Assembly (NCBI RefSeq): GCF_002261335.1
Contig: NZ_NEVL01000004.1
Location: 1 to 64,000 of the forward strand
Reading direction: 5' to 3'
DNA: 64,000 bases
Source: Bordetella genomosp. 1
Lineage (GTDB): Bacteria > Pseudomonadota > Gammaproteobacteria > Burkholderiales > Burkholderiaceae_B
The notes beneath the pieces are model-generated. The model did not search any database and was not told the DNA's origin. It saw only the letters and a list, made by a program, of their open reading frames with translations. Every line of letters starts with the position of its first letter. Within the stretch, counting starts at the first letter, position 1. Below, one piece after another: positions 3,416 to 48,119 of the stretch. A program made the translations under genes and the position numbers.

Positions 3416-4921
3416 TTAACGGCCGCGGCTGAACAGGCTCGATCCTTCAATGCGCGAGAAAGCCGACGATGCGGCATCCAGCGCCACCTTGCGCAACAGC
3501 AATTCAGTGGTGGCTTCGTAGATATTGACGTCCTCCAGGCCGGACAGCTGCTTCGTGTATTCGAGGCCACGCGCGGCGCCGGTGGCGTCGAGCGCGTCCA
3601 GTTCGTTCATGCGCGCGCCGACCGAGGCACGCACGGTCAGGACGTTGTCCAGCGCCAGCGTGAGCTGCTTGTTGGCGGTGGCGATCTGGTTCACCAGGCG
3701 GGCCGAGGCGACGGGGTCGCCCTGCGACGGCTGCTTGAGTTCGTTGATCAGGTCGTTCATGGCGGAGAACATGTCGGCATTGCCGTTGTTCGCCACGCCG
3801 ATCGCGTAGCTGTCGCCGTCGGCGGGCGCGCCGCTCACCGAGAACGACATGTTGCCGAACTCGATCTTGTCGCCGGCCACGTACGGCACGTTGGCGGGCA
3901 GCGTGGGATCGGGCGGCGTGCTCGTGACCGAGTAGGTGATGTTGCCGGCGCCGTCATCGGCGAACTGGAGCGAGTAGGCCTTGGCGGGATCGACCGAACC
4001 GGTGATCGAGATCGGGCTGAACGCGCCGGTGCCGGTGTTGGCGGCGTCGGGCGTGGCCGTGTAGGCGCGCGCGGCCGGCGCCAGCGTGATGACGTCGCCA
4101 TCGACCGGGGCGCCGCTGACCTGGAACGACACGCTGTCGAACGAGATCTTGTCGCCGCTCACGTACGGGATGTCGGTGGGCAGCGCCGCGTCGGGCGGCG
4201 TGCTCACGACCGAGTAGGTCATGTTGCCGGCGCCGTCGTCGGTGAATTCCAGCGAGTAGGTCTTGGTCGGGTCGATCGGGCCGTTGACCGAGGTCGAGCT
4301 GAACGTGGCCGTGCCGCCGTTGGCCGGGTCGGCCTTGGTGATGTAGGCGCGCGTGCCCGACGAGAAGCTGGCGAAGATGTCCGGACCGACGTCGCTCGAG
4401 GCGATCTGGCGGCTCTGGTCGACCTGCACCGTGCGGGTGCCCACGTCGCCCTGGAACGTGATGTTGCCGGCGGCGTCCTTCACGTACGGCTGGGTCTGGC
4501 CCTTGTAGCCCGAGAACAGGTACTGGCCGTTCCCGTCGGTGGAGTTGGCCAGGCCCATCAGCTGGTCGCGCGAGCTTTCGAGCGCGCTCACCAGCGCCTG
4601 GCGGTCGGCGTCGCTCATGGTGCCGTTGCCGGCTTCCACGACACGCTTGAGCACGTCCTGCAGGGTCGTCACGACCGAGGTCAGGGCGTTGTCTTCCATG
4701 CCCAGCGACTGCGCCGCGCTGTTGCGGTTCGAGCCGTAGGTGCTGTTCATGCTGGCGGTCTGCGACACGTTCACGGCCAGCGAGGCGGCGAGCGGATCGT
4801 CGGCCGGCGTCAGCACGCGCTTGCCGCTGGACATTTGTTCTTGCAGGCGCGACAGGGCCGCTTCCTGGTTCAGGATGCCGTTCAGGCCATTCTGGTAAAT
4901 CAGCGAGGTGCTCAGACGCAT
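3416..4921 (-). CDS. flgL: Flagellar hook-filament junction protein FlgL (HAP3), enlarged
   Basis: Junction protein that links the hook, through FlgK, to the flagellin filament. Both termini are flagellin-like: the N-terminus starts MRLSTSLIYQNGLNGI, and the C-terminal helix contains RASVGARMNELDALD and ends near LLLRKVALDAASSAFSRIE. At 501 residues it is much longer than the 317-residue E. coli protein. The extra length is a surface-domain insertion built of two copies of an 88-residue unit (residues 191-278 and 285-372) that align without gaps. Shared landmarks are RAY at the start, DDGAGN, STPPD, and VSGAP near the end. ATG at 4921 begins a sequence typical of FlgL. It lies 53 bp after flgK and is the last structural gene of the flgB-flgL series. 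Confidence 0.95.
   Translation of the reverse strand: MRLSTSLIYQNGLNGILNQEAALSRLQEQMSSGKRVLTPADDPLAASLAVNVSQTASMNSTYGSNRNSAAQSLGMEDNALTSVVTTLQDVLKRVVEAGNGTMSDADRQALVSALESSRDQLMGLANSTDGNGQYLFSGYKGQTQPYVKDAAGNITFQGDVGTRTVQVDQSRQIASSDVGPDIFASFSSGTRAYITKADPANGGTATFSSTSVNGPIDPTKTYSLEFTDDGAGNMTYSVVSTPPDAALPTDIPYVSGDKISFDSVSFQVSGAPVDGDVITLAPAARAYTATPDAANTGTGAFSPISITGSVDPAKAYSLQFADDGAGNITYSVTSTPPDPTLPANVPYVAGDKIEFGNMSFSVSGAPADGDSYAIGVANNGNADMFSAMNDLINELKQPSQGDPVASARLVNQIATANKQLTLALDNVLTVRASVGARMNELDALDATGAARGLEYTKQLSGLEDVNIYEATTELLLRKVALDAASSAFSRIEGSSLFSRGR
3806..4351 (-). repeat. Tandem duplication inside flgL
   Basis: Two in-frame copies of an 88-codon unit, at 4088-4351 and 3806-4069, encode residues 191-278 and 285-372 of FlgL with a constant 94-residue offset and no gaps. 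The copies have diverged at many positions, so this is not a recent copying error. The unit probably forms one surface-exposed beta-rich domain, present twice. Confidence 0.85.
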
Positions 4922-10363: not shown

Positions 10364-11128
10364 TCAGCTGACGGCCGACAGAATGCCGTTGGCGCGTTCT
10401 GCATTGCGGTTGGCTTCGGTGATGACCTGCATCTGCATCTCGAACCGGCGCGCGTTGTCGATCATGCCGACCATCGCGCTGGCGGCGCTGACGTTGCTGT
10501 TTTCGAGCACGCCGGAGAGCAGGCGCAGCGCCGGATCGGCCGGCAGGGGCGCGGGCGGCTGCCCGTTTGCCTGCGGCTGGCGGCGGAACAGGCCATCGTC
10601 GCCCCGCACCATCTGCTGCTCGGGCGGGTTCACCATCTTGAGCCGGCCGAGGTTGAGGATGTTGTTGGGCGGATCGCCCGCGCCGATGGCGGTGATCGTG
10701 CCGTCGGAGGCGATCGTCAGCGAGGCCTGGTCGGGCACGTCGATGATGCCGTTCTGGTCGGACAGCACCGGCACGCCGTTGGCCGTCTGCAGCACGCCAT
10801 TCACACCCACGGCGAGGTTGCCGGCGCGGGTGTAGGCCTCCCCTTGCGGGGTCTGGATCGCAAGCCAGCCCGGACCGGCCAGCGCGACGTCGAGGTCGCG
10901 GCCGGTGGTCTGCACGTCGCCCAGCTGGAAGCGCGAGCCGGGCGTGGTGGCGAGCGTCGCCACCCGCGTGGGCAGCGACGTGCCGTCGTTCATGGGCACC
11001 GAGCGGAACATCGAGATCTGCTCGCGAAAACCCGGCGTGTTGACGTTCGCCAGGTTGTTGCTGATCACGGCCTGGTTCTCCGTGATCCGCGCGGCGCCGT
11101 TCATGGCGGTATAGACAATGCGATCCAT
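10364..11128 (-). CDS. flgF: Flagellar proximal rod protein FlgF
   Basis: Proximal rod subunit of the FlgBCF group. The 254-residue product (E. coli 251) starts [37 protein letters not shown], the family N-terminal helix, and has a central AGPGWLAIQTPQGEAYTRAGN motif (GPG...AYTR) seen across rod proteins. The C-terminal helix (SNVSAASAMVGMIDNARRFEMQ) pairs with the N-terminal one. It sits between flgE (23 bp upstream) and flgG (54 bp downstream). Confidence 0.97.
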   Translation of the reverse strand: MDRIVYTAMNGAARITENQAVISNNLANVNTPGFREQISMFRSVPMNDGTSLPTRVATLATTPGSRFQLGDVQTTGRDLDVALAGPGWLAIQTPQGEAYTRAGNLAVGVNGVLQTANGVPVLSDQNGIIDVPDQASLTIASDGTITAIGAGDPPNNILNLGRLKMVNPPEQQMVRGDDGLFRRQPQANGQPPAPLPADPALRLLSGVLENSNVSAASAMVGMIDNARRFEMQMQVITEANRNAERANGILSAVS

Positions 11129-11151
11129 GGCCTGTTTCCGTTACCGGCCGC

Positions 11152-12378
11152 TTAGCGCATGTTCATCAAGACTTGCATGATTTCATCCTGCGTCTTGATG
11201 GTCTGTGCGTTGGCCTGGTAGGTGCGCTGGGCAACGATCATGTTGACCAGTTCCTTGCTCATGTCCACGTTCGAGGCTTCGAGCGCCTGGCCGGCCAGGG
11301 TCGACAGACCGTTGGTGCCCGGCTGGCCCAGCACGGCCTGGCCGGAGTCGGCGGTTTCGGCCCAGGCGTTGTTGCCCACGGGCTGCAGGCCCTGCACGTT
11401 GTTGAAGTTGGCCAGCACGATGGTGCCGATGGTCTGCGACTCGCCGTTGGTGTACTTGGCTTCGAGGCTGCCATCCTTGCCGATCGTGATGCCCGAGAAT
11501 TCGCCGCTGGAGTAGCCGGTCTGGGTCATCTTCGGGTTGAAGTCGCTGCCGTACTGCGTCGTGCCGGCGTAGTTCATCACGATGGCCATCGGCGCGGCCG
11601 GCGAGGTGGTGCCGCCCGGCGTGGCGTAGTTGATCGTCACGCTCGCGGGCGTGGTGGTCATCACGCCGGCGCTGTTGAACGTGAAGGTCGCGTTGGGGTC
11701 GGCGGCGGCGCCCACGGTCATGTCCTGGCCGTCGAGCTGGTAGTACACGTCATAGACGCTCTCGCCGGCGGCGGCGGGACGCTTGACGAAGAACTGCGTC
11801 ATCTGGTGCGAGTTGCCCAGCGAGTCATACACCGTGTACGGCACCGAGGTGGTGTACGTGGTGTTGTCGGTGGCGTCGAACGGCGTGACGGTGCCGTCGA
11901 TGGCCGTGGCGTTGGCGTCCAGGTTGGTCTGCACGGTCATGCCGTCGGTCGCGCGCGGGGCGATGTTGCCCTGCGGCAGCGTCAGGCCCACCGGCGCGGC
12001 GCCGATGCCGCCCGGGGGATAGCCGGTCAGCTGGTAGCCCTGCGCGTTGACGATGCGGAAGTCCTTGTCGATGCCGAATTCGCCGTTGCGCGAGTAGAAC
12101 ACCGAACCGCTCGGGTCGAGCAGGCGGAAGAAGCCCTTGGCGCCGTCGATGGCGATGTCGTATTCGCCGCCCGTGGAGGTGACGTTACCGACCGTGAAAC
12201 GCTGGTTGATGGCCGAAACCTTCACACCCAGACCGACGCGCGAGCTGGCGTACACATCCGCGAACGACGCCGAGCCCGACTTGAAGCCGACGGTGCCCGA
12301 GTTGGCGATGTTGTTGCCAATGACGTCGAGGTTCTGCGAGGCGGCGTTCAGGCCGCTCAATCCTTGTCCGAAACCCAT
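11152..12378 (-). CDS. flgE: Flagellar hook protein FlgE
   Basis: Monomer of the flexible hook. The 408-residue product (E. coli 402) starts MGFGQGLSGLNAASQNLDVIGNNIANSGTVGFKSG and ends SNVDMSKELVNMIVAQRTYQANAQTIKTQDEIMQVLMN, both hallmark helices of hook proteins. The middle contains the long beta domains expected for FlgE. It follows flgD by 69 bp, the longest gap between flgB and flgF. Confidence 0.98.
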   Translation of the reverse strand: MGFGQGLSGLNAASQNLDVIGNNIANSGTVGFKSGSASFADVYASSRVGLGVKVSAINQRFTVGNVTSTGGEYDIAIDGAKGFFRLLDPSGSVFYSRNGEFGIDKDFRIVNAQGYQLTGYPPGGIGAAPVGLTLPQGNIAPRATDGMTVQTNLDANATAIDGTVTPFDATDNTTYTTSVPYTVYDSLGNSHQMTQFFVKRPAAAGESVYDVYYQLDGQDMTVGAAADPNATFTFNSAGVMTTTPASVTINYATPGGTTSPAAPMAIVMNYAGTTQYGSDFNPKMTQTGYSSGEFSGITIGKDGSLEAKYTNGESQTIGTIVLANFNNVQGLQPVGNNAWAETADSGQAVLGQPGTNGLSTLAGQALEASNVDMSKELVNMIVAQRTYQANAQTIKTQDEIMQVLMNMR

Positions 12379-36912: not shown

Positions 36913-38424
36913 ATGGCTGCTGTTATCAATACCAACTACCTGTCGCTGGTTGCTCAGAACAACCTGAACAAGTCCCAGTCGGCTCTGGGTTCCGCCATCG
37001 AGCGTCTGTCGTCGGGCCTGCGCATCAACAGCGCCAAGGACGACGCCGCTGGCCAAGCCATCGCCAACCGCTTCACCGCCAACGTCAAGGGTCTGACCCA
37101 AGCCGCTCGTAACGCCAACGACGGTATCTCGATCGCTCAGACGACCGAAGGCGCCCTGAACGAAATCAACAACAACCTGCAGCGCGTTCGCGAACTGACC
37201 GTTCAAGCCACCAACGGCACGAACTCGCAGTCGGATCTGGAATCGATCCAGGCTGAAATCACCCAGCGTCTGGGCGAAATCACCCGCGTGTCGGAACAGA
37301 CCCAGTTCAACGGCGTGAAGGTTCTGGCCGATGACCAAAGCCTGACCATCCAAGTCGGCGCCAACGACAACGAAACCATCACGATCAACCTGCAACAGAT
37401 CAACGCCAGCACGCTGGGTCTGGGCAACCTGGACGTGAGCAACAAGGCTTTCGACACGACCAAGCTGGCCGCTTCGCCGACCACGCAAGTCACCCCCCCG
37501 GGAACGACCGCTTCGGTCAAGCTGACCGCTGTCGACACCGCCACCGCTTCGGGCTTCGACGTCTACGTTGACGACGCCGATCCGGAAAAGCTGTATGTTT
37601 CGAACGACGGCGGCTCGACGCTGTACGCCGTTTCGGGCTACGACAACGCCACCGGCCAACTCGAATTCGACTCGTCGACCTCGGTTTCGGCCACCGCCAC
37701 CGCTGCTGCCGCCGGTCAACAGATCGCCGTGGGCAATGGCGTGACCATCAACGTCGACGACGCCAAGTTCGATGACCAGAACGCTGCCGCCACCCCGGTC
37801 GTGTACCTGGATTCCAACGGCGACTTCTTCGTGTCGACCGACGGTGGTTCGAACGGCTGGAGCGCCACGTTCGCTTCCGACGGCTCCGTGTCGTACGACA
37901 GCTCGGCTGCCGCTACCTCGCTGCCCGCCGATGCTACGGCTCAGCTGACCGACTACGAAATCCCGTCGAACACCCCGGCTGTGACCGCCAACCTGACCGG
38001 CCTGAGCGCTGCTCAAGTGGGCTCGGCTCCCCAGCTGTACGCCAACAGCGAAGGCGGCTACGTCGTCAAGGGTTCGGCCAACGGCGCCGACGTGTACTAC
38101 AAGGCCAACGTGTCCTCGAACGGCACGGTCACGCTGGGCGACAAGCTCAACGCCGACCCGCTGGCTTCGATCGACAAGGCCCTGGCCAGCGTCGACTCGC
38201 TGCGTAGCGACCTGGGCGCGATCCAGAACCGCTTCGAATCGACCATCACGAACCTGAACAACACGGTGAACAACCTGTCCGCCGCCCGTTCGCGTATCGA
38301 AGATGCCGACTACGCCACCGAAGTGTCGAACATGACCAAGGCTCAGATCCTGCAACAAGCTGGCACCTCGGTGCTGGCGCAGGCCAACCAAGTGCCGCAA
38401 ACGGTCCTGTCGCTGCTGCGTTAA
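36913..38424 (+). CDS. fliC: Flagellin FliC
   Basis: Filament subunit, 503 residues. The N-terminal D0/D1 region (AAVINTNYLSLVAQNNLNKSQSALGSAIERLSSGLRINSAKDDAAGQAIANRF) and the C-terminal one (ADYATEVSNMTKAQILQQAGTSVLAQANQVPQTVLSLLR) are canonical. The centre (about 180-410) is the variable, surface-exposed part and is rich in Ser/Thr, suitable for O-glycosylation. ATG 36913 follows GGGAG by 7 nt, so the frame upstream to 36856 is not used. Codon use differs visibly from neighbours (more GCT, GTT, CGT), as expected for a highly expressed gene. Followed by two terminators and then by the modification genes. Confidence 0.98.
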   Translation: MAAVINTNYLSLVAQNNLNKSQSALGSAIERLSSGLRINSAKDDAAGQAIANRFTANVKGLTQAARNANDGISIAQTTEGALNEINNNLQRVRELTVQATNGTNSQSDLESIQAEITQRLGEITRVSEQTQFNGVKVLADDQSLTIQVGANDNETITINLQQINASTLGLGNLDVSNKAFDTTKLAASPTTQVTPPGTTASVKLTAVDTATASGFDVYVDDADPEKLYVSNDGGSTLYAVSGYDNATGQLEFDSSTSVSATATAAAAGQQIAVGNGVTINVDDAKFDDQNAAATPVVYLDSNGDFFVSTDGGSNGWSATFASDGSVSYDSSAAATSLPADATAQLTDYEIPSNTPAVTANLTGLSAAQVGSAPQLYANSEGGYVVKGSANGADVYYKANVSSNGTVTLGDKLNADPLASIDKALASVDSLRSDLGAIQNRFESTITNLNNTVNNLSAARSRIEDADYATEVSNMTKAQILQQAGTSVLAQANQVPQTVLSLLR

Positions 38425-38442: not shown

Positions 38443-38505
38443 AGGGACGCTCGCGTCCCTCTCGCTGGATCAAAGCCACCCCGGGCTCGCCCGGGGTGGC
38501 TTTTT
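38443..38505 (+). terminator. Tandem terminators after fliC
   Basis: A first 7-bp hairpin (38443-38449 with 38454-38460) is followed by a strong 11-bp stem (38475-38485 with 38490-38500) with a CTCG loop, flanked by AAA before and five T after. The second is a classical intrinsic terminator and separates fliC from the modification operon. Confidence 0.93.
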
Positions 38506-38640: not shown

Positions 38641-41600
38641 ATGCTCAACACGGCCCCTTCGCGCCTGGATGCCGCTTCGCGCAGCAAACGGCTGGACTAC
38701 ACCCTCTCCCCCGGTCACCTTCGCGCCACGGCGCACCTGTACGGCATCGACACCGTGCCGCTGGACCGCGCCCGCGTGCTGGAAATCGGCTGCATCGACG
38801 GAGAGAATCTGCTGCCGCTGGCGCAGGCCTATCCGAACGCACGCGTGGTCGGGGTCGACACGAATCCCGAGACCATCGAGCGCGGCCGGCGCTACGCCGA
38901 GCTGCTCAAGCTCGACAACGTGGCGCTGCAGGCACTCTCCCTGGAAGCGCTGCTCGAGTGGCAGAGCGATGCGGCGCCGTTCGACTACATCGTGGTGCGC
39001 GGCCTGTTCAGCACCCTGAGCAATGACGCGCAGCTCGCGCTGCTGCTGTGGTGCCGCAGCGTGCTCTCGCCCGAGGGGCTGGTGTTCGTCGACTACGCCA
39101 CCAATCCCGGCGCCAAGGCTGCCGAGATCGTGCGCGACGCCATCATGCTCCACGCCCACGATGCCACCACCGAAGACGAGGTCAAGTCGAGCGCGCGCGC
39201 CGCGCTCACCCTCTTCCAGAGCGGCATGTCGGGCAGCAATCCGCTGGGCCCCGCCCTGGGCGACATGTCGCAGCTGTTCGCGGGCGAACTCGCCGACGAC
39301 GCCAGCGGCGCCTCGCCCTTCCTGCTCGGCAGCAACGCCTGCTATCTGATCGAGTTCACCGACCGCGCCCAGCAGGCCGGCCTGAGCTACGTGGGCGATG
39401 GCCTGCCGCTCACCGAACTGCCGCAGAACTACGGCCAGAACGTGGCGCTCACCCAGAGCCTGGTGGCACTGGGCCGCGCCAAGGTGGTGCGACAGCAATA
39501 CCTGGACTTCGCCACCGGCCGCGCCGCGCGACGCAGCCTGCTGGTGCACGAGGACCGCGCCGGCGCCATCCAGGCCAGGCCCGACCTGGATCGCCTGCAC
39601 GACCTGCGCTGGGCGACCGGCCTCATGCGCGCGAGCGTGACGGCCGTCGTCGACGGCGTGATCTTCATGAGCCATGGCGGCCAGATCCACAACACCAAGG
39701 ATCCGCTGCAGGTCCTGATGCTCGACACGCTGGCCCATGCCTGGCCCGCCTCGGTGTCGTACGAGGCCCTGCGCGCCGCCGTCGAGCACGGCCTGTCCGA
39801 CCGTCCGTCGCTCTACACCCAGCAGGCGCTCGACGCGGCCTTGCAACAGCTGCTGTACCAGGGCCTGCTGTATTACTGCCTGGAGGCCGGTCCCTACGAT
39901 GTGGCCGAAGATGCCGCGCCGGCCCTGGTGGCCTCGGTCGCGCACAACTTCTCGGCCAGCACCAGCGACCGCATGCCCCAGTTCACGCTATGGCACGAGC
40001 CCACCCTGTGGACGCCGCCGCTGGCCGAACGTGGCGTGCTGGACAGGATCGCCGCCGGCCAGTCCCTGGGCGAGATCGTCGACGCGCTGTGGGACAAGAG
40101 CACCGAGCGCGGCGATCACTTCGGCATGGCCTACGCCGCGCCAGCCGCCACCGTGCTGTCGAACCTGAAGCGCCATGGCGGCCTGCGCGTCGGCGACGCC
40201 GCCTGGCTCGCGTTCCTGCGCACCGGCCTGGCCGATGCCGCGCACCCGGGCCCGTTCTGGCATCTCTACATGGATGCCCACGCGCGAGTCGGTTTCAACC
40301 GCGACGCCGTCTACCTGAGCGAGCCGGTCGCCAACATCAAGGTCACGCCGGCCCTGCAGGCCACCCTGCACAAACTGGCGGAGCTGGCCAACGGTGAATC
40401 GTATGCGGCGGCCATCCCCGAAGCGCGCAAGCTCGCCCGCCGCTATCCCAAGCATTTCCAGGTCTGGGAGATCCTGGTCTACAGCCTGTGCCGCGCCGGC
40501 GACGTGCTCGATGCGTTGCGCGCCGCCGTGTCCATGCTGGACCTGGCGCCGATGCGCTCGCTGGCCTACAACCGCCTGGGCGAATGCCTGACGACCGCCG
40601 GCCGCGCGCTGGAAGCGCTGGCCTGCGGCCGCCGTGCCGTCGAGCTCGATCCGAACAGCGCCGTTGCGCATCTGACGCTGGGCGACGCCCTGCCCGCCAC
40701 CGGCCGCTACGCCGAGGCCGAGATGTCGTGCCGCCGCGCCATCGAGCTCAACCCGAAGCTGAACTCGGCACGCACCAATCTGGTCAACGTGCTGTGCCAG
40801 CGGGGCGATGCGGTGGGCGCGGAGATCGCGGCCGCCGAGGGTCTCGCCGCCTTCCCGACCCAGTCGACGCTGTACAACAATCGCCTGTTCGCGATGAACT
40901 ACGCGCCGGACAAGACCGCCGAAGAGGTGTTCGAGGCCTATCGCGAATTCGAGCGCGCCCTGTGCCAGCCGCTCTACGCCGAATGGAAGCCGTTCCGCAA
41001 CGACCGCAACCCGAACCGCCGCCTGAAGATCGGTTATGTGTCGCCCGACTTCCGCCACCACTCGGGCAACGAGTTCATCGAACCGCTGCTCTCGCACCAC
41101 GACCGCAGCCAGTTCGAACTCACGGCCTATGCCGAGCTGAAGTACGAAGACGGCATCACCGGCCGCTTCAAGACCTACTTCGACAACTGGGTCTCGATCC
41201 GCGGCATGAGCGCCTCGACGCTCACCGAGCGCGTGCGCGCCGACGGCATCGACATCCTGATCGACCTGGCCGGCCACACGGGCCAGAACCGCCTGAGCGT
41301 GTTCGCCCGCAAGCCGGCGCCGGTGTCCGCCACCTGGCTGGGCTTCGGCTACACCACCGGGATCTCCGCGATCGACTACATCCTGACCGACGAGGTGATG
41401 GCCCCGGTCGGCAGCGAGCACCTGTTTGCCGAGAAGCCCTGGCGCCTGGAACACGGCAGCCTGGTCTACCGCGCCAAGGAAGGCATGGGCGAGGTCAGCG
41501 AGCTGCCCGCCCTGAAGAACGGCCACGTCACGCTCGGCACCCTGAGCCGCTCGATCCGCATCAACCATCGCACCGTGCGCGTGTGGTCGGAAATCCTGCG

Positions 41601-42102
41601 CCGCCTGCCCGCGGCGGTGCTGGTGATCGACAGCGGCAGCTTCGGCGAGCCGCACCAGCAGGAAGAGATGGCGGCCAAGTTCGCCGAACACGGCATCGGC
41701 CGCGACCGCCTGCGCATCGGCAAGAACAGCCCGCCGTGGAACGTGCTGCGCAACATGGACATCGGCCTGGACTGCTTCCCGCACAACTCGGGCGTGACGC
41801 TGGTCGAGACGCTGTACATGGGCGTGCCCTACGTGACCCTGGCCGACCGCCCCAGCGTGGGCCGCATCGGCAGTTCGGTCCTGCACAGCGCCGGCCACCC
41901 GGAATGGGTCGCCAGCAACGAAGAGGAATACATCCAGAAGGTGGTCGACCTCGCCCGCGACCTGCCCGCCCTGGCCCGCATCCGTGCGGGACTTCGCGAT
42001 GAGATGTGCGCCAGCCCCCTGATGGACGGCGCCGGCTTCGCCCGCCGCGTCGAGGCCGGCTTCCGTGAAATGTTCAAGACCTGGAGCGAGTCGTCCAAAT
42101 GA
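38641..42102 (+). CDS. Methyltransferase-TPR-OGT (GT41) fusion, probable flagellin modification enzyme
   Basis: 1153 residues in three parts. (1) Residues 1-565: class I SAM methyltransferase with [16 protein letters not shown] (46-61), then [12 protein letters not shown] and a domain (about 225-300) like the 'methyltransferase regulatory domain'. The order and flanking blocks recall the rickettsial protein-lysine methyltransferase family, though its usual YNTYPG block reads YATNPG here. (2) Residues 575-750: TPR-like helices, e.g. [32 protein letters not shown]. (3) Residues 790-1153: O-GlcNAc-transferase-like domain with [42 protein letters not shown] and [25 protein letters not shown]. The TPR-GT41 part resembles Caulobacter FlmG, which glycosylates flagellin. 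The place right after fliC and the sugar genes downstream support the same role (inference). No Shine-Dalgarno is obvious at ATG 38641; the stop overlaps the next gene (ATGA). Confidence 0.9.
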
Positions 42103-42869
42103 AGGCAGTGATCCTGGCGGGCGGCCTCGGCACCCGCATTTCCGAAGAAACCCACATGCGTCCCAAGCCGATGATCGAGATCGGCGGGCGGCCCATCCTG
42201 TGGCACATCATGAAGATCTACTCCCACTACGGGGTGAACGACTTCATCATCTGCTGCGGCTACAAGGGCTACATGATCAAGGAGTACTTCGCCAATTACT
42301 TCCTGCACATGTCGGATGTGACCTTCGACATGGCCAACAACAAGATGGAAGTGCACCAGCAGAAGGCCGAACCCTGGCGCGTCACGCTGGTCGACACGGG
42401 CGAAAACACCATGACCGGCGGCCGCCTCAAGCGCGTGGCGCCGTACCTGAAGGATGAAGAGGCGTTCTGCTTCACGTATGGCGACGGCGTGGCCGACGTC
42501 GACGTGGGCGCGCTGATCGACTTCCACCGCGCCCACGGCAAGGCCGCCACGGTCACCGCCGTGCAGCCCCCCGGCCGCTACGGCGCGCTGCGCATGGACG
42601 GCACGCGCGTGGCCGGCTTCACCGAGAAGCCGCGCGGCGACGGCGGCCTGATCAACGGCGGCTTCTTCGTGCTCTCGCCCAAGGTGCTGCCGCTCATCGA
42701 CGAAGACGCCACCGCCTGGGAAGCCGAGCCGCTCGAGCGCCTGAGCCGCGACGGCGAGCTGCAGGCCTTCCAGCACCTGGGCTTCTGGCAGCCGATGGAC
42801 ACGCTGCGCGAGAAGAACCTGCTCGAATCGCTCTGGAGCAGCGACACGGCGCCGTGGAAGGTCTGGTAA
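42099..42869 (+). CDS. rfbF: Glucose-1-phosphate cytidylyltransferase
   Basis: Makes CDP-glucose from CTP and glucose-1-phosphate, first step of CDP-6-deoxy sugar routes. The 256-residue product (family about 257) begins [38 protein letters not shown], with the nucleotide-binding GGxGTR and the KP lysine. Further blocks are [25 protein letters not shown] and [11 protein letters not shown]. Its ATG overlaps the previous stop (ATGA) and its TAA overlaps the next ATG by one base. Confidence 0.96.
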
Positions 42870-43927
42870 TGCTGCCCTCGCCCGCATTCTGGCGCGGCAA
42901 GCGTGTGCTCCTGACCGGGCACACGGGTTTCAAGGGCGCCTGGCTGGCGTTCTGGCTCGCGCGCCTGGGTGCGCGCGTGACCGGTATCGCGCTGGCGCCC
43001 AACACCACGCCCTCCCTGCACGATGCGCTGCGCCTGGCCGACCACGTCGAGGGCCACCTCTGCGACATCCGCGATGCGGCTGCGCTGGCGGCGCACGTGC
43101 GCGCGGCCGCGCCCGAGATCGTGCTGCACCTGGCGGCCCAGCCGCTGGTGCGCGCCAGCTACCGCGAGCCGGTGGCGACCTTCTCCGCCAACGTGATGGG
43201 CACCGTGCACCTGCTCGAGGCCCTGCGCGGCCTGGACGGCGTGCGCAGCGTGGTGGCGGTGACGACCGACAAGGTCTACCGCAACCAGGAATGGCACTAC
43301 CCCTATCGCGAGACCGATCCGCTGGGCGGCCACGATCCGTACAGCGCCAGCAAGGCGGCCTGCGAGATCGCGATCGCCTGCTATCGCGACGCGTTCCTGT
43401 CGGCCCAGGGCGTGGCGCTCGCCAGCGCGCGCGCCGGCAACGTGATCGGCGGCGGCGACTGGTCGGAAGACCGGCTGATACCGGATGCGGTGCGGGCCTG
43501 GCAGCGCGGCGACACGCTGGAGATCCGCCGGCCCGACGCGGTGCGGCCCTGGCAGCACGTGCTCGAGCCCCTGTCCGGCTATCTGAACCTGGCGCAGGCG
43601 CTCTGGGACGACCCGACCCGGGCCACGGCCTACAACTTCGGTCCCGACGCCGCCGGCGCCGTGCCGGTGCGCGACGTGGTCGAGATCGCCCGCTCGGCCT
43701 ATGGCCGCGGCGCGGTCAGCTACGGCACCGAGATCAGCGGCCCGCACGAGGCCGGCCTGCTGATGCTCGACACCTCGCGCACCCGCGCCGAGCTGCGCAG
43801 CGTGCCGCGCTGGACGCTGGCCACCGCGGTCGGCCGCAGCATGGACTGGTACCGCCAGCAGGCCGAGGGTGCCGACGCCCGTGCGCTGTGCGAGGCCGAC
43901 CTCGCCGCCTACGAGGCCGCGCCATGA
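42869..43927 (+). CDS. rfbG: CDP-glucose 4,6-dehydratase
   Basis: Converts CDP-glucose to CDP-4-keto-6-deoxyglucose. Extended short-chain dehydrogenase fold with NAD motif TGHTGFKGAWL near the N-terminus, HLAAQPLVRASY, the VTTDKVY catalytic Thr region and the YxxxK motif in DPYSASK. NVIGGGDWSEDRLIPD and RPWQHVLEPLSGYL are specific to this dehydratase. ATG 42869 follows GGAAGG by about 8 nt and overlaps the rfbF stop as TAATG; a GTG at 42854 is less likely. 352 residues, usual size. Confidence 0.96.
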   Translation: MLPSPAFWRGKRVLLTGHTGFKGAWLAFWLARLGARVTGIALAPNTTPSLHDALRLADHVEGHLCDIRDAAALAAHVRAAAPEIVLHLAAQPLVRASYREPVATFSANVMGTVHLLEALRGLDGVRSVVAVTTDKVYRNQEWHYPYRETDPLGGHDPYSASKAACEIAIACYRDAFLSAQGVALASARAGNVIGGGDWSEDRLIPDAVRAWQRGDTLEIRRPDAVRPWQHVLEPLSGYLNLAQALWDDPTRATAYNFGPDAAGAVPVRDVVEIARSAYGRGAVSYGTEISGPHEAGLLMLDTSRTRAELRSVPRWTLATAVGRSMDWYRQQAEGADARALCEADLAAYEAAP

Positions 43928-44481
43928 ACATCGTGTTCACCGACACGCCGCTGGCCGGGCTGCGCATGGCGCGCCGGCCCAGGGCGGGCGACAACCGCGG
44001 ATTCTTCTCGCGCCTGTTCAGCCAGGCCGACCTGCAATCCGCCGGCTGGCCGGCCCCGGTGAACCAGGTCAATCACAGCTACACCGCCACGCGCGGCTCG
44101 GTGCGCGGCATGCATTACCAGCACCACCCGCACGCCGACACCAAGCTGGTGCAGTGCGTGCGCGGCGAGGTCTGGGACGTGGCCGTGGACCTGCGCCGCG
44201 CCTCGCCCACCTTTCTGCAGTGGCACGCGGTGCGGCTGTCGGCCGACAACGGCCTGGGCCTGCTGATCCCGGCCGGATTCGCGCACGGCTTCCAGACGCT
44301 GACGCCCGACGCCGAGCTGATCTACTGCCACAGCGCCCCGTATGACCCGGCCAGCGAAGGCGCGCTGCACCACCGCGATCCGCGCCTCGCCATCGATTGG
44401 CCGCTGGCCGTGACGGAAGTCTCCGCACGCGACCAGGGCCACGCTTTCCTCGACCCCGGTTTCCAAGGATTGGACCCATGA
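43924..44481 (+). CDS. RmlC-like sugar 3,5-epimerase (CDP-4-keto-6-deoxyhexose)
   Basis: 185-residue cupin of the dTDP-4-dehydrorhamnose 3,5-epimerase family. Landmarks are RGFFSRLF, VNQVNHSYTATRGSVRGMHYQ with the catalytic His, KLVQCVRGEVWDVAVDLR, PAGFAHGFQTL and CHSAPYDP with the expected Tyr. Its neighbours make a CDP sugar, so the substrate is more likely a CDP-4-keto-6-deoxy sugar than the dTDP one (inference). It may act on C3, C5 or both. Overlaps with genes on both sides (ATGA). Confidence 0.88.
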   Translation: MNIVFTDTPLAGLRMARRPRAGDNRGFFSRLFSQADLQSAGWPAPVNQVNHSYTATRGSVRGMHYQHHPHADTKLVQCVRGEVWDVAVDLRRASPTFLQWHAVRLSADNGLGLLIPAGFAHGFQTLTPDAELIYCHSAPYDPASEGALHHRDPRLAIDWPLAVTEVSARDQGHAFLDPGFQGLDP

Positions 44482-45710
44482 AGTGCCGTCATTGCAGCAC
44501 CGAGCTGCACCTGCCCTTTCTCGACCTGGGCCATGCACCGCCTTCGAATGCATACCTCAAGCCCGAAGACCTGAATCGTCCCGAGGTCACGTTCCCGCTG
44601 CGCCTGCTGGTGTGCGACCAGTGCTGGCTGGTGCAGACCGAGGACTACGCCGGACGCGAGGCGCTGTTCACCGAGGAATACGCCTACTTCAGCTCCTTCT
44701 CGCAGTCGTGGCTGGCGCACTCGCGCCGCTACGTGGAGAAGATGATCGACCGTTTCGCGCTGGACGCCGACAGCATGGTGGTGGAGATCGCCGCCAATGA
44801 CGGCTATCTGCTGCAATACGTGCAGGCCGCCGGCGTGCCCTGCTACGGCGTGGAGCCCACCGCCAGCACCGCCGCCGCCGCGCGCAAGCTCGGCCTGCAC
44901 ATCGTCGAACGCTTCTTCGGCGAGGCCTTCGCCGCCGAACTGGTGGCCGAGGGCCGCGCCGCCGACGTCATCGCGGCCAACAACGTGCTCGCGCACGTGC
45001 CCGACATCAACGACTTCGTGGCCGGTTTCCGCACCCTGCTCAAGCCGGGCGGCGTGGCGACCTTCGAGTTCCCGCACCTGCTGCGCATGGTGGCGGAGAA
45101 CCAGTTCGACACCGCCTACCACGAGCACTATTCGTATCTCTCGCTCACGGCCGTGCAGCGCATCTTCGCCGCCAACGGCCTGGCCGTGTTCGACGTCGAA
45201 CAGCTGCCCACGCACGGCGGCAGCCTGCGCGTGTATGCGCAGCGCAGCGACACCGGCACGCAGGCCGAGGCGCCCGCGGTGGCCCGCCTGCTGCGCGAAG
45301 AGGCCGATGCCGGCGTGACGACCGCGGCGTTCTACCGCGGCTTCCAGCAGCGCGCCGAGGCCGTCAAGAATGGCCTGCTGTCGTTCCTGCTCCAGGCCCG
45401 CGCCGAAGGCAAGCGGGTCGGCGCCTACGGTGCCGCCGCCAAGGGCAACACGCTGCTCAACTTCGCGGGCGTGCGCCCGGACCTGCTGCCCTACGTGGTC
45501 GACCTGAATCCGGCCAAGCAGAACCAGTTCCTGCCCGGCAGCCACATCCCGGTGGTCGACGAGGCCACGCTGCGCGCCGACCAGCCCGACTACGTCGTGA
45601 TCCTGCCCTGGAACCTGAAGGTCGAGATCAGCACGCAACTGGCCTACGCCGCCGCCTGGAAGGGCCGCTTCGTGACCGCCGTGCCGCAGCTCACCATCAC
45701 CCCGGCCTGA
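44478..45710 (+). CDS. Zinc-containing NDP-sugar C-methyltransferase
   Basis: 410-residue SAM enzyme of the TcaB9/EvaC/NovU type, which adds a methyl branch to a ring carbon (usually C3, or C5 in NovU) of a 4-keto sugar. The N-terminal zinc site is C3, C6, C46 and C49 (CRHC, CDQC). The SAM motif VVEIAANDGYLLQY lies at 101-114. The catalytic block YHEHYSYLS follows (the Glu-His pair of TcaB9), and a C-terminal domain contains VGAYGAAAKGNTLLNF. ATG 44478 overlaps the previous stop (ATGA). Product: a C-methyl-branched CDP-6-deoxy-4-ketohexose (inference). Confidence 0.9.
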   Translation: MKCRHCSTELHLPFLDLGHAPPSNAYLKPEDLNRPEVTFPLRLLVCDQCWLVQTEDYAGREALFTEEYAYFSSFSQSWLAHSRRYVEKMIDRFALDADSMVVEIAANDGYLLQYVQAAGVPCYGVEPTASTAAAARKLGLHIVERFFGEAFAAELVAEGRAADVIAANNVLAHVPDINDFVAGFRTLLKPGGVATFEFPHLLRMVAENQFDTAYHEHYSYLSLTAVQRIFAANGLAVFDVEQLPTHGGSLRVYAQRSDTGTQAEAPAVARLLREEADAGVTTAAFYRGFQQRAEAVKNGLLSFLLQARAEGKRVGAYGAAAKGNTLLNFAGVRPDLLPYVVDLNPAKQNQFLPGSHIPVVDEATLRADQPDYVVILPWNLKVEISTQLAYAAAWKGRFVTAVPQLTITPA

Positions 45711-45718
45711 CCGCCATC

Positions 45719-46540
45719 ATGTCCGAACCGGTCACCGTCCTGGGCGCACACGGCTTCATCGGCCGGCACCTGGTCGCCCATCTGGCGCGCCAGGGTGTCG
45801 ACTGCCGGGCGTACGGCCGCGAGCCGCGCGCAAGCTACGCGCGGCCGCTCGGACACGTGATCTACGCGATCGGCCTGACCTCGGATTTCCGCCAGCGCCC
45901 GCTCGACACCGTCGAGGCCCATGTGTGCGTGCTGCGCGCGCTGCTGGCCGAAGGCGGTTTCACGAGCCTGACGTATCTGTCGAGCACCCGCGTCTACGCG
46001 GGCGCCGCCGCCACGCGCGAAGACAGCCGCCTGAGCGTGGACCCGAACGACCCGAGCGATCTCTACAACCTGTCCAAGCTCACCGGCGAGGCGCTGTGCC
46101 TGCATGGCGCCGGCGGCCGCGCCAAGGTGGTCCGGCTCTCCAATGTGGTGGGCCTGCGCGATGGCGTCGACAGCTTCATCGACCAGTTGCTCGCCGAAGG
46201 CGAGCAGCACGGCCGCGTGGCGCTGCAGACCGCGCTCGACTCGAGCAAGGACTACCTCCACGTCGACGACGCCGTGGCGCAGATCGCCGCCATCGCCCAG
46301 GCCGATGCGCGCGGCATCTACAACGTGGCGGGCGGCCAGAACGTCAGCAATGGCGAGATCGCCGCCCAGCTCACCGGCCAGTTCGGCTGGCCCGTCACGG
46401 TCCGTGACGGCGCCCCGGCCTGGCGCTTTCCCGCGATCGATATCCGCAACACGCAAGCGCTGACGGGCCTGCGCGCCCGCCCCTTCGCTGATTACTTCCC
46501 GACCTTTCTCAATCTGTACCGACAGACCAGGGGATTCTGA
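45719..46540 (+). CDS. NAD(P)-dependent sugar reductase/epimerase (SDR), probable 4-ketoreductase
   Basis: 273-residue extended SDR with the nucleotide motif GAHGFIGRHL at about 9-18 and the catalytic YxxxK as YNLSK, preceded by STRVY. YLHVDDAVAQIAAIAQ is the usual substrate-domain block. Being last among the sugar-nucleotide genes, it most likely reduces the C4 keto group of the branched sugar to give the final CDP-sugar; epimerisation is the alternative. 8 bp after the C-methyltransferase; its stop directly abuts the next ATG (TGAATG). Confidence 0.85.
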   Translation: MSEPVTVLGAHGFIGRHLVAHLARQGVDCRAYGREPRASYARPLGHVIYAIGLTSDFRQRPLDTVEAHVCVLRALLAEGGFTSLTYLSSTRVYAGAAATREDSRLSVDPNDPSDLYNLSKLTGEALCLHGAGGRAKVVRLSNVVGLRDGVDSFIDQLLAEGEQHGRVALQTALDSSKDYLHVDDAVAQIAAIAQADARGIYNVAGGQNVSNGEIAAQLTGQFGWPVTVRDGAPAWRFPAIDIRNTQALTGLRARPFADYFPTFLNLYRQTRGF

Positions 46541-47296
46541 ATGTCCTACCTCGAAACCACCCCCGACGCGCATCCTGACTACCGCAAGGAAAAGCAGGCC
46601 CGCATCGAAGGCTTTGCTTCCGACGACGCGTTCCGCGAGCTGTCCATCGCCTGGCGCACCATGGCGCTGGAACGCAAATACATGAACAACTTCTCCTGGC
46701 TCGGCCGTCCGCTGATCCAGCTGCCGCAGGACGCGATGGCGATGCAGGAGCTGATCTGGGCCGTCAAGCCGGACCTGATCATCGAGACCGGCGTGGCCCA
46801 TGGCGGCTCGCTGATCCTGTCCGCCTCGATGCTCGAGCTGATCGGCCACGGCGACGTGGTCGGCGTCGATATCGAGATCCGCCAGCACAACCGCGACGCG
46901 ATCGAGGCCCACCCGCTGGCCAAGCGCATCTCGCTGATCGAGGGCTCGAGCACCGACGCAGGCGTAATCGAGCAGGTCCGTGCGCACGCCAAGGGCAAGA
47001 AGAACGTGCTGGTGTGCCTCGATTCGAACCACACCCACGAACACGTGCTGGCCGAGCTCGAGGCCTACGCGCCGCTGGTCTCGCCGGGCAGCTACTGCGT
47101 GGTGTTCGACACCTTCGTCGAAGACATGCCGGCCGACTACGTCTGGCAGGATCGCGGCTGGGGCAAGGGCAACAACCCCAAGACCGCCGTGTGGGCCTAC
47201 CTCGAGAAGCACCCCGAGTTCGAGATCGATCGCTCGATCGAGGACCGCCTGCTCGTGACGTCCGCGCCCGACGGCTTCCTGCGCCGCAAGGCCTGA
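46541..47296 (+). CDS. CmcI-type SAM methyltransferase
   Basis: 251-residue member of the cephalosporin hydroxylase (CmcI)/rhamnosyl O-methyltransferase family. Family landmarks are KYMNNFSWLGRPLIQLPQDAMAMQELIW, the SAM/metal motif ETGVAHGGSLI, VVGVDIEIR, VCLDSNHTHEHVLAELEAY and GSYCVVFDTFVED. Despite the family name, such enzymes in sugar clusters mostly methylate sugar hydroxyls. Here it probably O-methylates the flagellin sugar before or after transfer. No gap from the previous gene, 7 bp to the next. Confidence 0.88.
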   Translation: MSYLETTPDAHPDYRKEKQARIEGFASDDAFRELSIAWRTMALERKYMNNFSWLGRPLIQLPQDAMAMQELIWAVKPDLIIETGVAHGGSLILSASMLELIGHGDVVGVDIEIRQHNRDAIEAHPLAKRISLIEGSSTDAGVIEQVRAHAKGKKNVLVCLDSNHTHEHVLAELEAYAPLVSPGSYCVVFDTFVEDMPADYVWQDRGWGKGNNPKTAVWAYLEKHPEFEIDRSIEDRLLVTSAPDGFLRRKA

Positions 47297-47303
47297 TCCG
47301 GCG

Positions 47304-47804
47304 ATGATCCGGATCGACCCCGCCGCGCGCGTCTCCGCGCTTGCCGACATCGAGGACTCGACGCGCGGCACGCGCATCGTGATCGAGGCTGGCGCGGTGG
47401 TGGACGCCTTCGTCAAGATCAAGCCCGCGGGCGGCAGCGGCGACGTCGTCATCGGCCCCGACAGCGTGATCAACTCGGGCTGCGTGCTCTATACCGGCAA
47501 CGGTATCCGCATCGGCCGGGGCGTGGCGGTGGCGGCCAACTGCACCTTCGCGCCGACCAACCACGAGTTCCGCCGCCGCGACGTGCCGATCCGGGCGCAG
47601 GGCTTTCGCCCGAGCAAGGGCGGCATCGTGATCGAGGACGACGTCTGGATCGGCGCGAACTGCGTGCTGCTCGACGGCGCCATCCTGCGCCAGGGCTGCG
47701 TGATCGGCGCGGGCTCGGTGGTGCGGGGCGAGATCCCCGCCTATTCGATCCAGGCCGGGAATCCGCTCGCGCTGCTGGGCTGGCGCGAGGAAAGCGGCGT
47801 ATAG
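47304..47804 (+). CDS. Hexapeptide-repeat acyltransferase
   Basis: 166-residue left-handed beta-helix acetyltransferase. Repeating [LIV]-G-x-x-x-x units include VVIGPDSVINSG, GIRIGRGVAVAANC, IVIEDDVWIGANCVLLDGAILRQGCVIGAGSVV, followed by IPAYSIQAGNPLALLGWR, the usual end of sugar O- and N-acetyltransferases. TNHEF carries the likely catalytic His. No aminotransferase occurs in the cluster, so O-acetylation is the better guess. Last gene of the modification operon. Confidence 0.9.
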   Translation: MIRIDPAARVSALADIEDSTRGTRIVIEAGAVVDAFVKIKPAGGSGDVVIGPDSVINSGCVLYTGNGIRIGRGVAVAANCTFAPTNHEFRRRDVPIRAQGFRPSKGGIVIEDDVWIGANCVLLDGAILRQGCVIGAGSVVRGEIPAYSIQAGNPLALLGWREESGV

Positions 47805-47921: not shown

Positions 47922-48119
47922 ATGGATGACATGTCCGTCAGCAGCACCGTCAACGCCGCCCTCGCGCTGCGCGACGTCAACACGGTCCAGGAAGTGCAGG
48001 TCGCCCTGCTGAAGAAGGTGCTGGCCTCCCAGGCCGACACCATGGCCACGCTGATGCAATCGGTGCAGCCGCTGGCCGTCGACAGCAACCTCGGCTCGCG
48101 CGTCAACACCAGCGCCTGA
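47922..48119 (+). CDS. Small YjfB-like putative motility protein
   Basis: 65-residue protein: MDDMSVSSTVNAALALRDVNTVQEVQVALLKKVLASQADTMATLMQSV and a short tail. The pattern (short N-terminus, VQxxVxxxLLKKxLDxQ helix, LxxxM) fits the YjfB family of putative motility proteins (PF14070), whose function is not well known. AAGGGA stands 7 nt before the ATG. It is transcribed away from the modification operon, 117 bp after it, and is followed by its own terminator. No sigma-28 promoter could be seen before it. Confidence 0.8.
   Translation: MDDMSVSSTVNAALALRDVNTVQEVQVALLKKVLASQADTMATLMQSVQPLAVDSNLGSRVNTSA

Follow-up and report, generated by a model that had tools for sequence, protein, structure and literature searches.

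A flagellin-side operon of Bordetella genomosp. 1 with a predicted pathway to a vinelose-type CDP-sugar and a methyltransferase-like half on its glycosyltransferase

The window analysed here comprises the initial 64 kb of contig C5 in the 5.6 Mb genome of Bordetella genomosp. 1, and its subject is an operon of eight genes that adjoins the flagellin gene fliC. We read it, at a probability of about 0.72, as a dedicated flagellin O-glycosylation operon that makes a vinelose-type sugar and attaches it with a glycosyltransferase whose N-terminal half, resembling a protein lysine methyltransferase (PKMT), recognises the flagellin. The parts of this reading differ in strength. That the flagellin glycan is built from a cytidine diphosphate (CDP)-activated 3-C-methyl-6-deoxy sugar can be put forward with good confidence, while vinelose itself is close to an even bet.

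The eight open reading frames (ORFs) occupy positions 38641-47804 on the plus strand, and each has an ATG start and zero internal stops. The tight junctions described in the first-pass annotation are all present: ATGA three times, TAATG and TGAATG once each, and gaps of 8 and 7 bp. Its list of gene families was reproduced by profile searches with Pfam and NCBIfam. The operon and its surroundings contain the following features.

36913..38424, plus strand: fliC, flagellin of 503 aa and presumed acceptor (Flagellin_N/C above cut-off; ATG at 36913)
38472..38503, plus strand: terminator-like hairpin between fliC and the fusion gene (14-bp stem, loop of 4, T tail)
38641..42102, plus strand: fusion of a PKMT-like half (residues ~14-516) with tetratricopeptide repeats (TPR) and a GT41/SPINDLY-type glycosyltransferase (~565-1153)
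42099..42869, plus strand: rfbF, glucose-1-phosphate cytidylyltransferase (TIGR02623, 478 bits, cut-off 300)
42869..43927, plus strand: rfbG, CDP-glucose 4,6-dehydratase (TIGR02622, 463 bits, cut-off 278; TTDK and YSASK in the translation)
43924..44481, plus strand: rfbC/rmlC-type sugar epimerase, acting at C5 or perhaps at C3 and C5 (PF00908; TIGR01221, 155.8 bits, cut-off 155.75)
44478..45710, plus strand: sugar 3-C-methyltransferase, cMT (PF08421, PF13489 and PF08484)
45719..46540, plus strand: short-chain dehydrogenase/reductase (SDR), presumed 4-ketoreductase (PF01370; GAHGFIG and YNLSK in the translation)
46541..47296, plus strand: rhamnosyl O-methyltransferase/CmcI-family O-methyltransferase (PF04989, 317 bits)
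47304..47804, plus strand: hexapeptide-repeat sugar O-acyltransferase (PF00132; WbbJ and WcaF models under cut-off)

The window RfbG scores above the TIGR02622 cut-off and has both the [ST]DK and the YxxxK pattern given for CDP-glucose 4,6-dehydratases in the available excerpt of PMC8987622. It is the sole match above that cut-off in the host genome. The RmlC-type epimerase aligns with solved RmlC. The best PDB matches of the cMT are sugar 3-C-methyltransferases (5t64, TcaB9 and the D-mycarose 3-C-methyltransferase), with Y-x-E-H aligned, and the protein has the Zn-binding, methyltransferase and C-terminal domains of this class together with its Glu-His, which is catalytic. PDB matches of the SDR are weak (the best, GDP-6-deoxy-D-mannose reductase, at 1.5e-9), and the O-methyltransferase scores 97 bits with NF045824, under the cut-off of 400.

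On these family assignments, RfbF and RfbG would yield CDP-4-keto-6-deoxyglucose, the cMT would add a methyl group at C3, the RmlC-type enzyme would invert C5 to give an L-sugar, and the SDR would reduce C4. The CmcI-family enzyme would then O-methylate, probably at O2, and the hexapeptide enzyme would O-acylate the sugar. The expected end product is a 6-deoxy-3-C-methyl-O-methylhexose that is acylated and CDP-activated; vinelose or one of its near stereoisomers is the most likely candidate. No 2,3-dehydratase is found among the eight genes, therefore O2 remains and can be methylated. In the mycarose pathway C3 methylation precedes C5 inversion, and by analogy the same order is probable here. 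The genes had been described as standing in a plausible biochemical order; the families do supply the steps, but C-methylation probably comes before C5 epimerisation, the reverse of the gene order. The KijD1, TcaB9 and D-mycarose-type 3-C-methyltransferases of antibiotic pathways resemble the window cMT over its whole length and have Y-x-E-H in common with it; those pathways use deoxythymidine diphosphate, whereas the window pathway is a CDP pathway with no 2-deoxygenation gene among the eight. Transfer of the sugar to FliC Ser/Thr residues would fall to the TPR-GT41 part of the fusion and take place in the cytoplasm, before the flagellin is exported; the PKMT-like half, homologous to surface-protein methyltransferases, would mainly recognise the flagellin.

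CDP-vinelose, reportedly obtained from Azotobacter vinelandii by Okuda and colleagues in 1967-68, is said to be CDP-6-deoxy-3-C-methyl-2-O-methyl-L-talose. To our knowledge this Azotobacter nucleotide sugar has been without genes or a role for almost sixty years. In the literature collection searched there was no paper on vinelose, no on-topic paper by title for a 3-C-methyl sugar together with flagellin, and none for an Achromobacter flagellin glycan glycosyltransferase. Judged by family assignment only, CDP activation, 6-deoxygenation, C5 inversion, 3-C-methylation, 4-reduction and O-methylation are all encoded in the window, and each expected step towards CDP-vinelose has a candidate gene there; the acyltransferase is extra. 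Since this step list matches that compound, A. vinelandii was expected to hold these genes.

A search with the window cMT of 248 genomes, the family of a Pseudomonas genome, gave 24 positives. The two best matches (72 and 73% identity) belong to genomes that, alone among the 24, also have a vanadium-nitrogenase alpha chain match above cut-off. Genome G617 was identified as A. vinelandii because its NifD (492/492) and VnfD (474/474) have zero mismatches in the printed alignments to PDB 4nd8 and 5n6y, respectively, which are A. vinelandii proteins. Its locus, L232, of which the fetched stretch starts inside or close to fliC, contains the C-terminal part of that gene and a TPR-GT41-GT2 gene. Convergent to these are rfbF, rfbG, rfbC, cMT, acyltransferase, reductase and O-methyltransferase genes, followed by PhyH and TylF-like genes. 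Identity with the window proteins is 80% for rfbF, 69% for rfbG, 59% for rfbC, 73% for cMT, 65% for the acyltransferase, 44% for the reductase and 56% for the O-methyltransferase. Of eight TIGR02622 matches in G617, the single one above cut-off is at this flagellin-side locus. A route to CDP-vinelose by way of a CDP-glucose dehydratase in A. vinelandii, if there is one, would thus very probably run through this locus. A figure legend in PMC2885672 places A. vinelandii fliC and flaG 15.3 kb apart.

Linkage to flagellin genes was counted in the host's family, f1, which includes Achromobacter. The cMT was present in 31/268 f1 genomes searched, and lay within 15 kb of a flagellin gene in 24/31 and 15.9 kb away in one. 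Three of the remaining genomes had no flagellin match and three had the flagellin on another contig; with the exception of one split match (G021), PF00669 matches under 116 bits were regarded as FlgL-like and not counted. In 30/31 f1 genomes the fusion gene was no more than 10 kb from a flagellin gene; in the 31st the two were on different contigs. G493, a genome of the same genus, carries the same operon, with six genes 71-92% identical and rfbF and rfbC adjacent (tblastn). The first-pass annotation had preferred a flagellin glycan to a lipopolysaccharide (LPS) cluster, and near the window this linkage supports it: the operon and its near relatives do not lie mainly away from flagellin genes with O-antigen transport genes beside them.

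A wider sample consisted of the best 80 of 585 relatives by RfbG similarity, with tests that ignore kinship. In this sample fliC was in the fetched flank of 9/37 loci with cMT vs 1/43 without (p 0.005), and a GT41 gene was present in 16/37 vs 1/43 (p 1e-5). Among loci of at least 15 kb the fliC counts were 8/24 and 1/31. The cMT loci without fliC came from rhizobia, Methylobacterium, a cyanobacterium and others. In the Pseudomonas family fliC lay within the fetched 20 kb in 13/24 cMT loci. When the presence of fliC was mapped on a FastTree tree built from 86 cMT sequences, 12 changes were needed, vs 28.9 in shuffles (0/500 as low). One group of 21 rows comprises the window, its genus, Achromobacter, several Comamonadaceae and both Azotobacter-like rows, the G617 cMT among them; fliC is nearby in 21/21 (support 93, not starred) and in 22/27 of the enclosing starred group. 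A paired-trait tree test of GT41 vs fliC gave a median p of 0.25, the number of independent pairs being too small. Linkage to flagellin is the rule near the window but not universal at greater distance; that the operon always travels with fliC does not hold in general.

Some rows in these counts need definition. For the tree, a stop-free cMT match of 330 residues was required, and L183 and L053 were left out of it; both stay in the locus counts, including the transmembrane proxy given below. L183 is the same locus as L064. L053 and L189 belong to one genome (G088), the former counted without fliC and the latter, a wider stretch, with it. L060 (G029) was counted as without fliC though the gene is 15.9 kb away.

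Transferase and sugar genes do not form a fixed set. In the same-genus genome G489, rfbF-rfbG-rfbC-cMT is kept and a TPR-GT41-GT2 gene (L172:4226-7900, plus strand) replaces the fusion. The A. vinelandii transferase is of this type, so exchange of the transferase seems to be independent of exchange of the sugar module. A GT41 gene stands directly before an rfbF + cMT module, with no fliC in the fetched flank, at L066, L071, L076 and L061 (Beijerinckiaceae, Methylobacterium and Sulfuritalea). At L047, L051, L054 and L104, rfbG is found with fliC and a GT41 gene and no close cMT. A broader proposal is that CDP-vinelose is a flagellin O-glycosylation donor, that this operon type is its pathway and has been exchanged between betaproteobacteria and gammaproteobacteria in company with various GT41 enzymes, and that in one lineage a flagellin-directed lysine methyltransferase became fused to GT41 and decayed to a recognition module. 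Taken whole, it is tentative and falls somewhat short of even odds.

The fusion has TPR repeats, a Glyco_transf_41 match above cut-off and a GT41 fold. SPINDLY (SPY) is nearest to its glycosyltransferase part in sequence and fold, and a GDP-fucose complex is among the structures matched. SPY is a protein O-fucosyltransferase, which makes a 6-deoxyhexose donor plausible for the window enzyme. The whole-model fold search yielded GT41 matches for residues 566-1153, and the N-terminal half was therefore modelled on its own. Unlike SPY and other GT41 enzymes, the window protein has a predicted CDP donor, a PKMT-like N-terminal half and Arg at the SPY lysine position. This lysine, conserved in OGT and SPY, has a donor-site role; among 31 fusions the position holds Arg in 24 and Lys in 7. 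We file the window enzyme neither as an OGT nor as a fucosyltransferase.

The N-terminal half is specifically PKMT-like, with sequence similarity over residues 20-322 and, in the predicted model, a fold match over 14-516. It is homologous to rickettsial PKMT1 and PKMT2 and to KmtA, outer-membrane protein lysine methyltransferases according to the available text of PMC11784438, and differs from them in having lost part of its S-adenosylmethionine (AdoMet) site, in being fused to a glycosyltransferase and in lying beside flagellin. Six AdoMet-site positions were compared: the Asp and His that this text identifies in PKMT2, and four glycine-loop motif positions of our own choice. In the window Asp73 is kept, Arg120 aligns with the AdoMet-contact His, and Ile52 replaces Gly/Ala in the glycine loop. 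The half has PKMT-like sequence and whole-length fold without the full set of AdoMet-site residues, and the fusion is not filed as an active PKMT. All six residues are kept in 5/31 fusions vs 21/21 aligned standalone homologues; of 55 standalone matches, these 21 lay in stretches that had been fetched. L064 was left out of this alignment, and three short PKMT fragments (G138, G011 and G024) were kept among the 55. Conservation of the six positions does not exceed that of random domain positions in the fusions (5209/20000 random sets as high) but does in the standalone homologues (40/20000). GT41 invariant positions served as a control, a weak one as they were picked from conserved motifs. Because AdoMet-site residues are lost in fusions, the comparison suggests that the PKMT half is a flagellin-recognition module.

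Standalone PKMT-like genes are found less than 3 kb from flagellin genes in 40/55 matches, in the Achromobacter family, for example L056:17891-19492 (minus strand) and L064:562-2529 (plus strand). They are candidate flagellin lysine methylases, and would represent an enzyme other than FliB for this methylation. FliB, the flagellin lysine methylase of Salmonella, is [4Fe-4S] dependent in the excerpt available of PMC8598068; methyl transfer to flagellin is what the PKMT-like enzymes are presumed to have in common with it. The median lysine content of the flagellin variable region was 5.2% at loci with a standalone PKMT (11 loci), 4.35% with the fusion only (18), 4.8% with both types (10) and 2.5% with neither (13). 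This trend is in the expected direction and was not used, because it is uncontrolled for kinship. In G009 a 1691-aa fusion ORF (L196:10588-15663, minus strand) runs across a flagellin match on the opposite strand, and its excess length therefore probably comes from a wrongly chosen start codon.

Several observations weigh against a dedicated flagellin operon with a vinelose-type sugar. In the wider sample fliC was absent from the fetched flank of 28/37 cMT loci, and in the Pseudomonas family from that of 11/24. In eight loci rfbG and fliC occur together with a GT41 gene but no cMT (some of these were retrieved on account of the fusion they carry); C-methylation is thus no requirement for CDP-sugars beside flagellin, and other CDP-sugars may be used on flagellin too. 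Arg973 of the window enzyme aligns with the SPY lysine, leaving the donor site without that residue. The promoter search before the operon gave no convincing site. In A. vinelandii the transferase is TPR-GT41-GT2 and not a PKMT fusion, the PhyH and TylF-like genes are extra, and the reductase, at 44% identity the step least conserved with the window, means that C4 could differ. With C4 and C5 stereochemistry unreadable from sequence, a flagellin glycan of another 3-C-methyl sugar, such as 3-C-methylrhamnose or a D-sugar like virenose, has an appreciable but minority chance; the RmlC-type enzyme, the O-methyltransferase and the CDP carrier fit vinelose step by step, and the window cMT groups with that of A. 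vinelandii. The five fusions that retain all six AdoMet residues may have an active PKMT half. A working bifunctional enzyme, which methylates flagellin lysines (or the glycan) and glycosylates as well, is nevertheless unlikely, given the Ile and Arg substitutions in the window and the random-level conservation of these positions in fusions, unlike in standalone proteins.

CDP-glucose pathways often serve LPS, and the operon might instead feed an O-antigen or another surface polysaccharide, its place beside fliC being incidental. The frequency of cMT modules without fliC in the wider sample fits this. A crude transmembrane proxy, counting polytopic ORFs within 9 kb of rfbG at loci of at least 15 kb, likewise does not separate loci with cMT and fliC (1/45, one genome included twice) from those with cMT and no fliC (1/32). 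Without cMT, polytopic ORFs were present in 10/43 loci lacking fliC and 1/8 having it; the proxy sets cMT loci apart from others, not fliC loci. Linkage of cMT to flagellin in 24/31 f1 genomes argues against a polysaccharide, as does the gene content. As first noted, O-antigen flippase, polymerase and aminotransferase families have zero matches among the eight genes (Pfam/NCBIfam), which also include no further glycosyltransferase. The genome's only Wzy_C match is on contig C7, together with a weaker, sub-cut-off 4,6-dehydratase-like match, and the operon is on C5; the eight genes contain no export or polymerisation genes of an O-antigen cluster, Wzx and ABC export being outside the genome-wide search. 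We regard the polysaccharide explanation as improbable, and the flagellin operon remains the preferred reading.

A glycosyltransferase gene and sugar-biosynthesis genes adjoin a flagellin gene in the window, as in flagellin glycosylation islands (FGIs). In the available text of De Maayer and Cowan 2016 (PMC4875605), FGIs of Enterobacteriaceae, with GT41, nucleotide-sugar and decorating genes next to the flagellin gene, encode GT41 enzymes that carry methyltransferase domains in 194 strains, and one FGI type, in 4 strains, has the CDP-4-keto-6-deoxyglucose pathway. The C-methyl term is absent from the main text of that paper, whereas the window has a cMT; the methyltransferase domain is not termed PKMT-like or decayed in the text available, and the bacterial family differs from the window's. 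The window operon is a variant of such islands, to which the vinelose link and the decayed PKMT half are added points. If our reading is correct, the orphan nucleotide sugar CDP-vinelose gains both genes and a use, flagellin glycans gain a CDP-linked, methyl-branched 6-deoxy sugar, and a PKMT-like enzyme seems to have been turned into the targeting half of a glycosyltransferase. The A. vinelandii link makes the old question of the purpose of CDP-vinelose testable in a soil bacterium that is a non-pathogenic laboratory organism, and the exact masses to seek in existing proteomes are +174.089 Da, or +216.100 Da with one acetyl.

On the 5' side the operon is preceded by motA/B, flhD/C, fliA and fliC, recognised from their translations, with a profile search for FliC only. 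This fliC is the stronger of two PF00669 matches in the host genome (156 bits); the second (89 bits, 4502-4912, minus strand) is taken to be FlgL. The operon adjoins fliC, as had been described, but the terminator-like hairpin in the 216-bp gap between fliC and the fusion gene means that it is perhaps not a continuation of fliC. The hairpin counts as a consensus match only, because the region has 3 such sites vs a mean of 5.8 in shuffles. A sigma-28 promoter candidate 5' of the fusion gene was rejected, its best score of 9 of 16 being the commonest value in 2000 random 217-bp windows; relatives score 8-11 and the fliC upstream region itself 11. No sigma-70-like site was found before the operon. 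G+C per kb is 0.66-0.74 in the operon and 0.59-0.71 in the flanks, level with them or slightly higher, which gives no clear signal of a composition island, and scans for tandem repeats and tRNA gave nothing relevant. Some Achromobacter genomes carry a gene for a TylF-like O-methyltransferase on the opposite strand between rfbF and rfbG (L064:8985-9776, minus strand), and the L056 copy (10808-11554, plus strand) is likewise opposite to its operon. On the 3' side of the window operon, a small ORF at 47922-48119 (plus strand) matches YjfB_motility (PF14070, 31 bits, cut-off 27).

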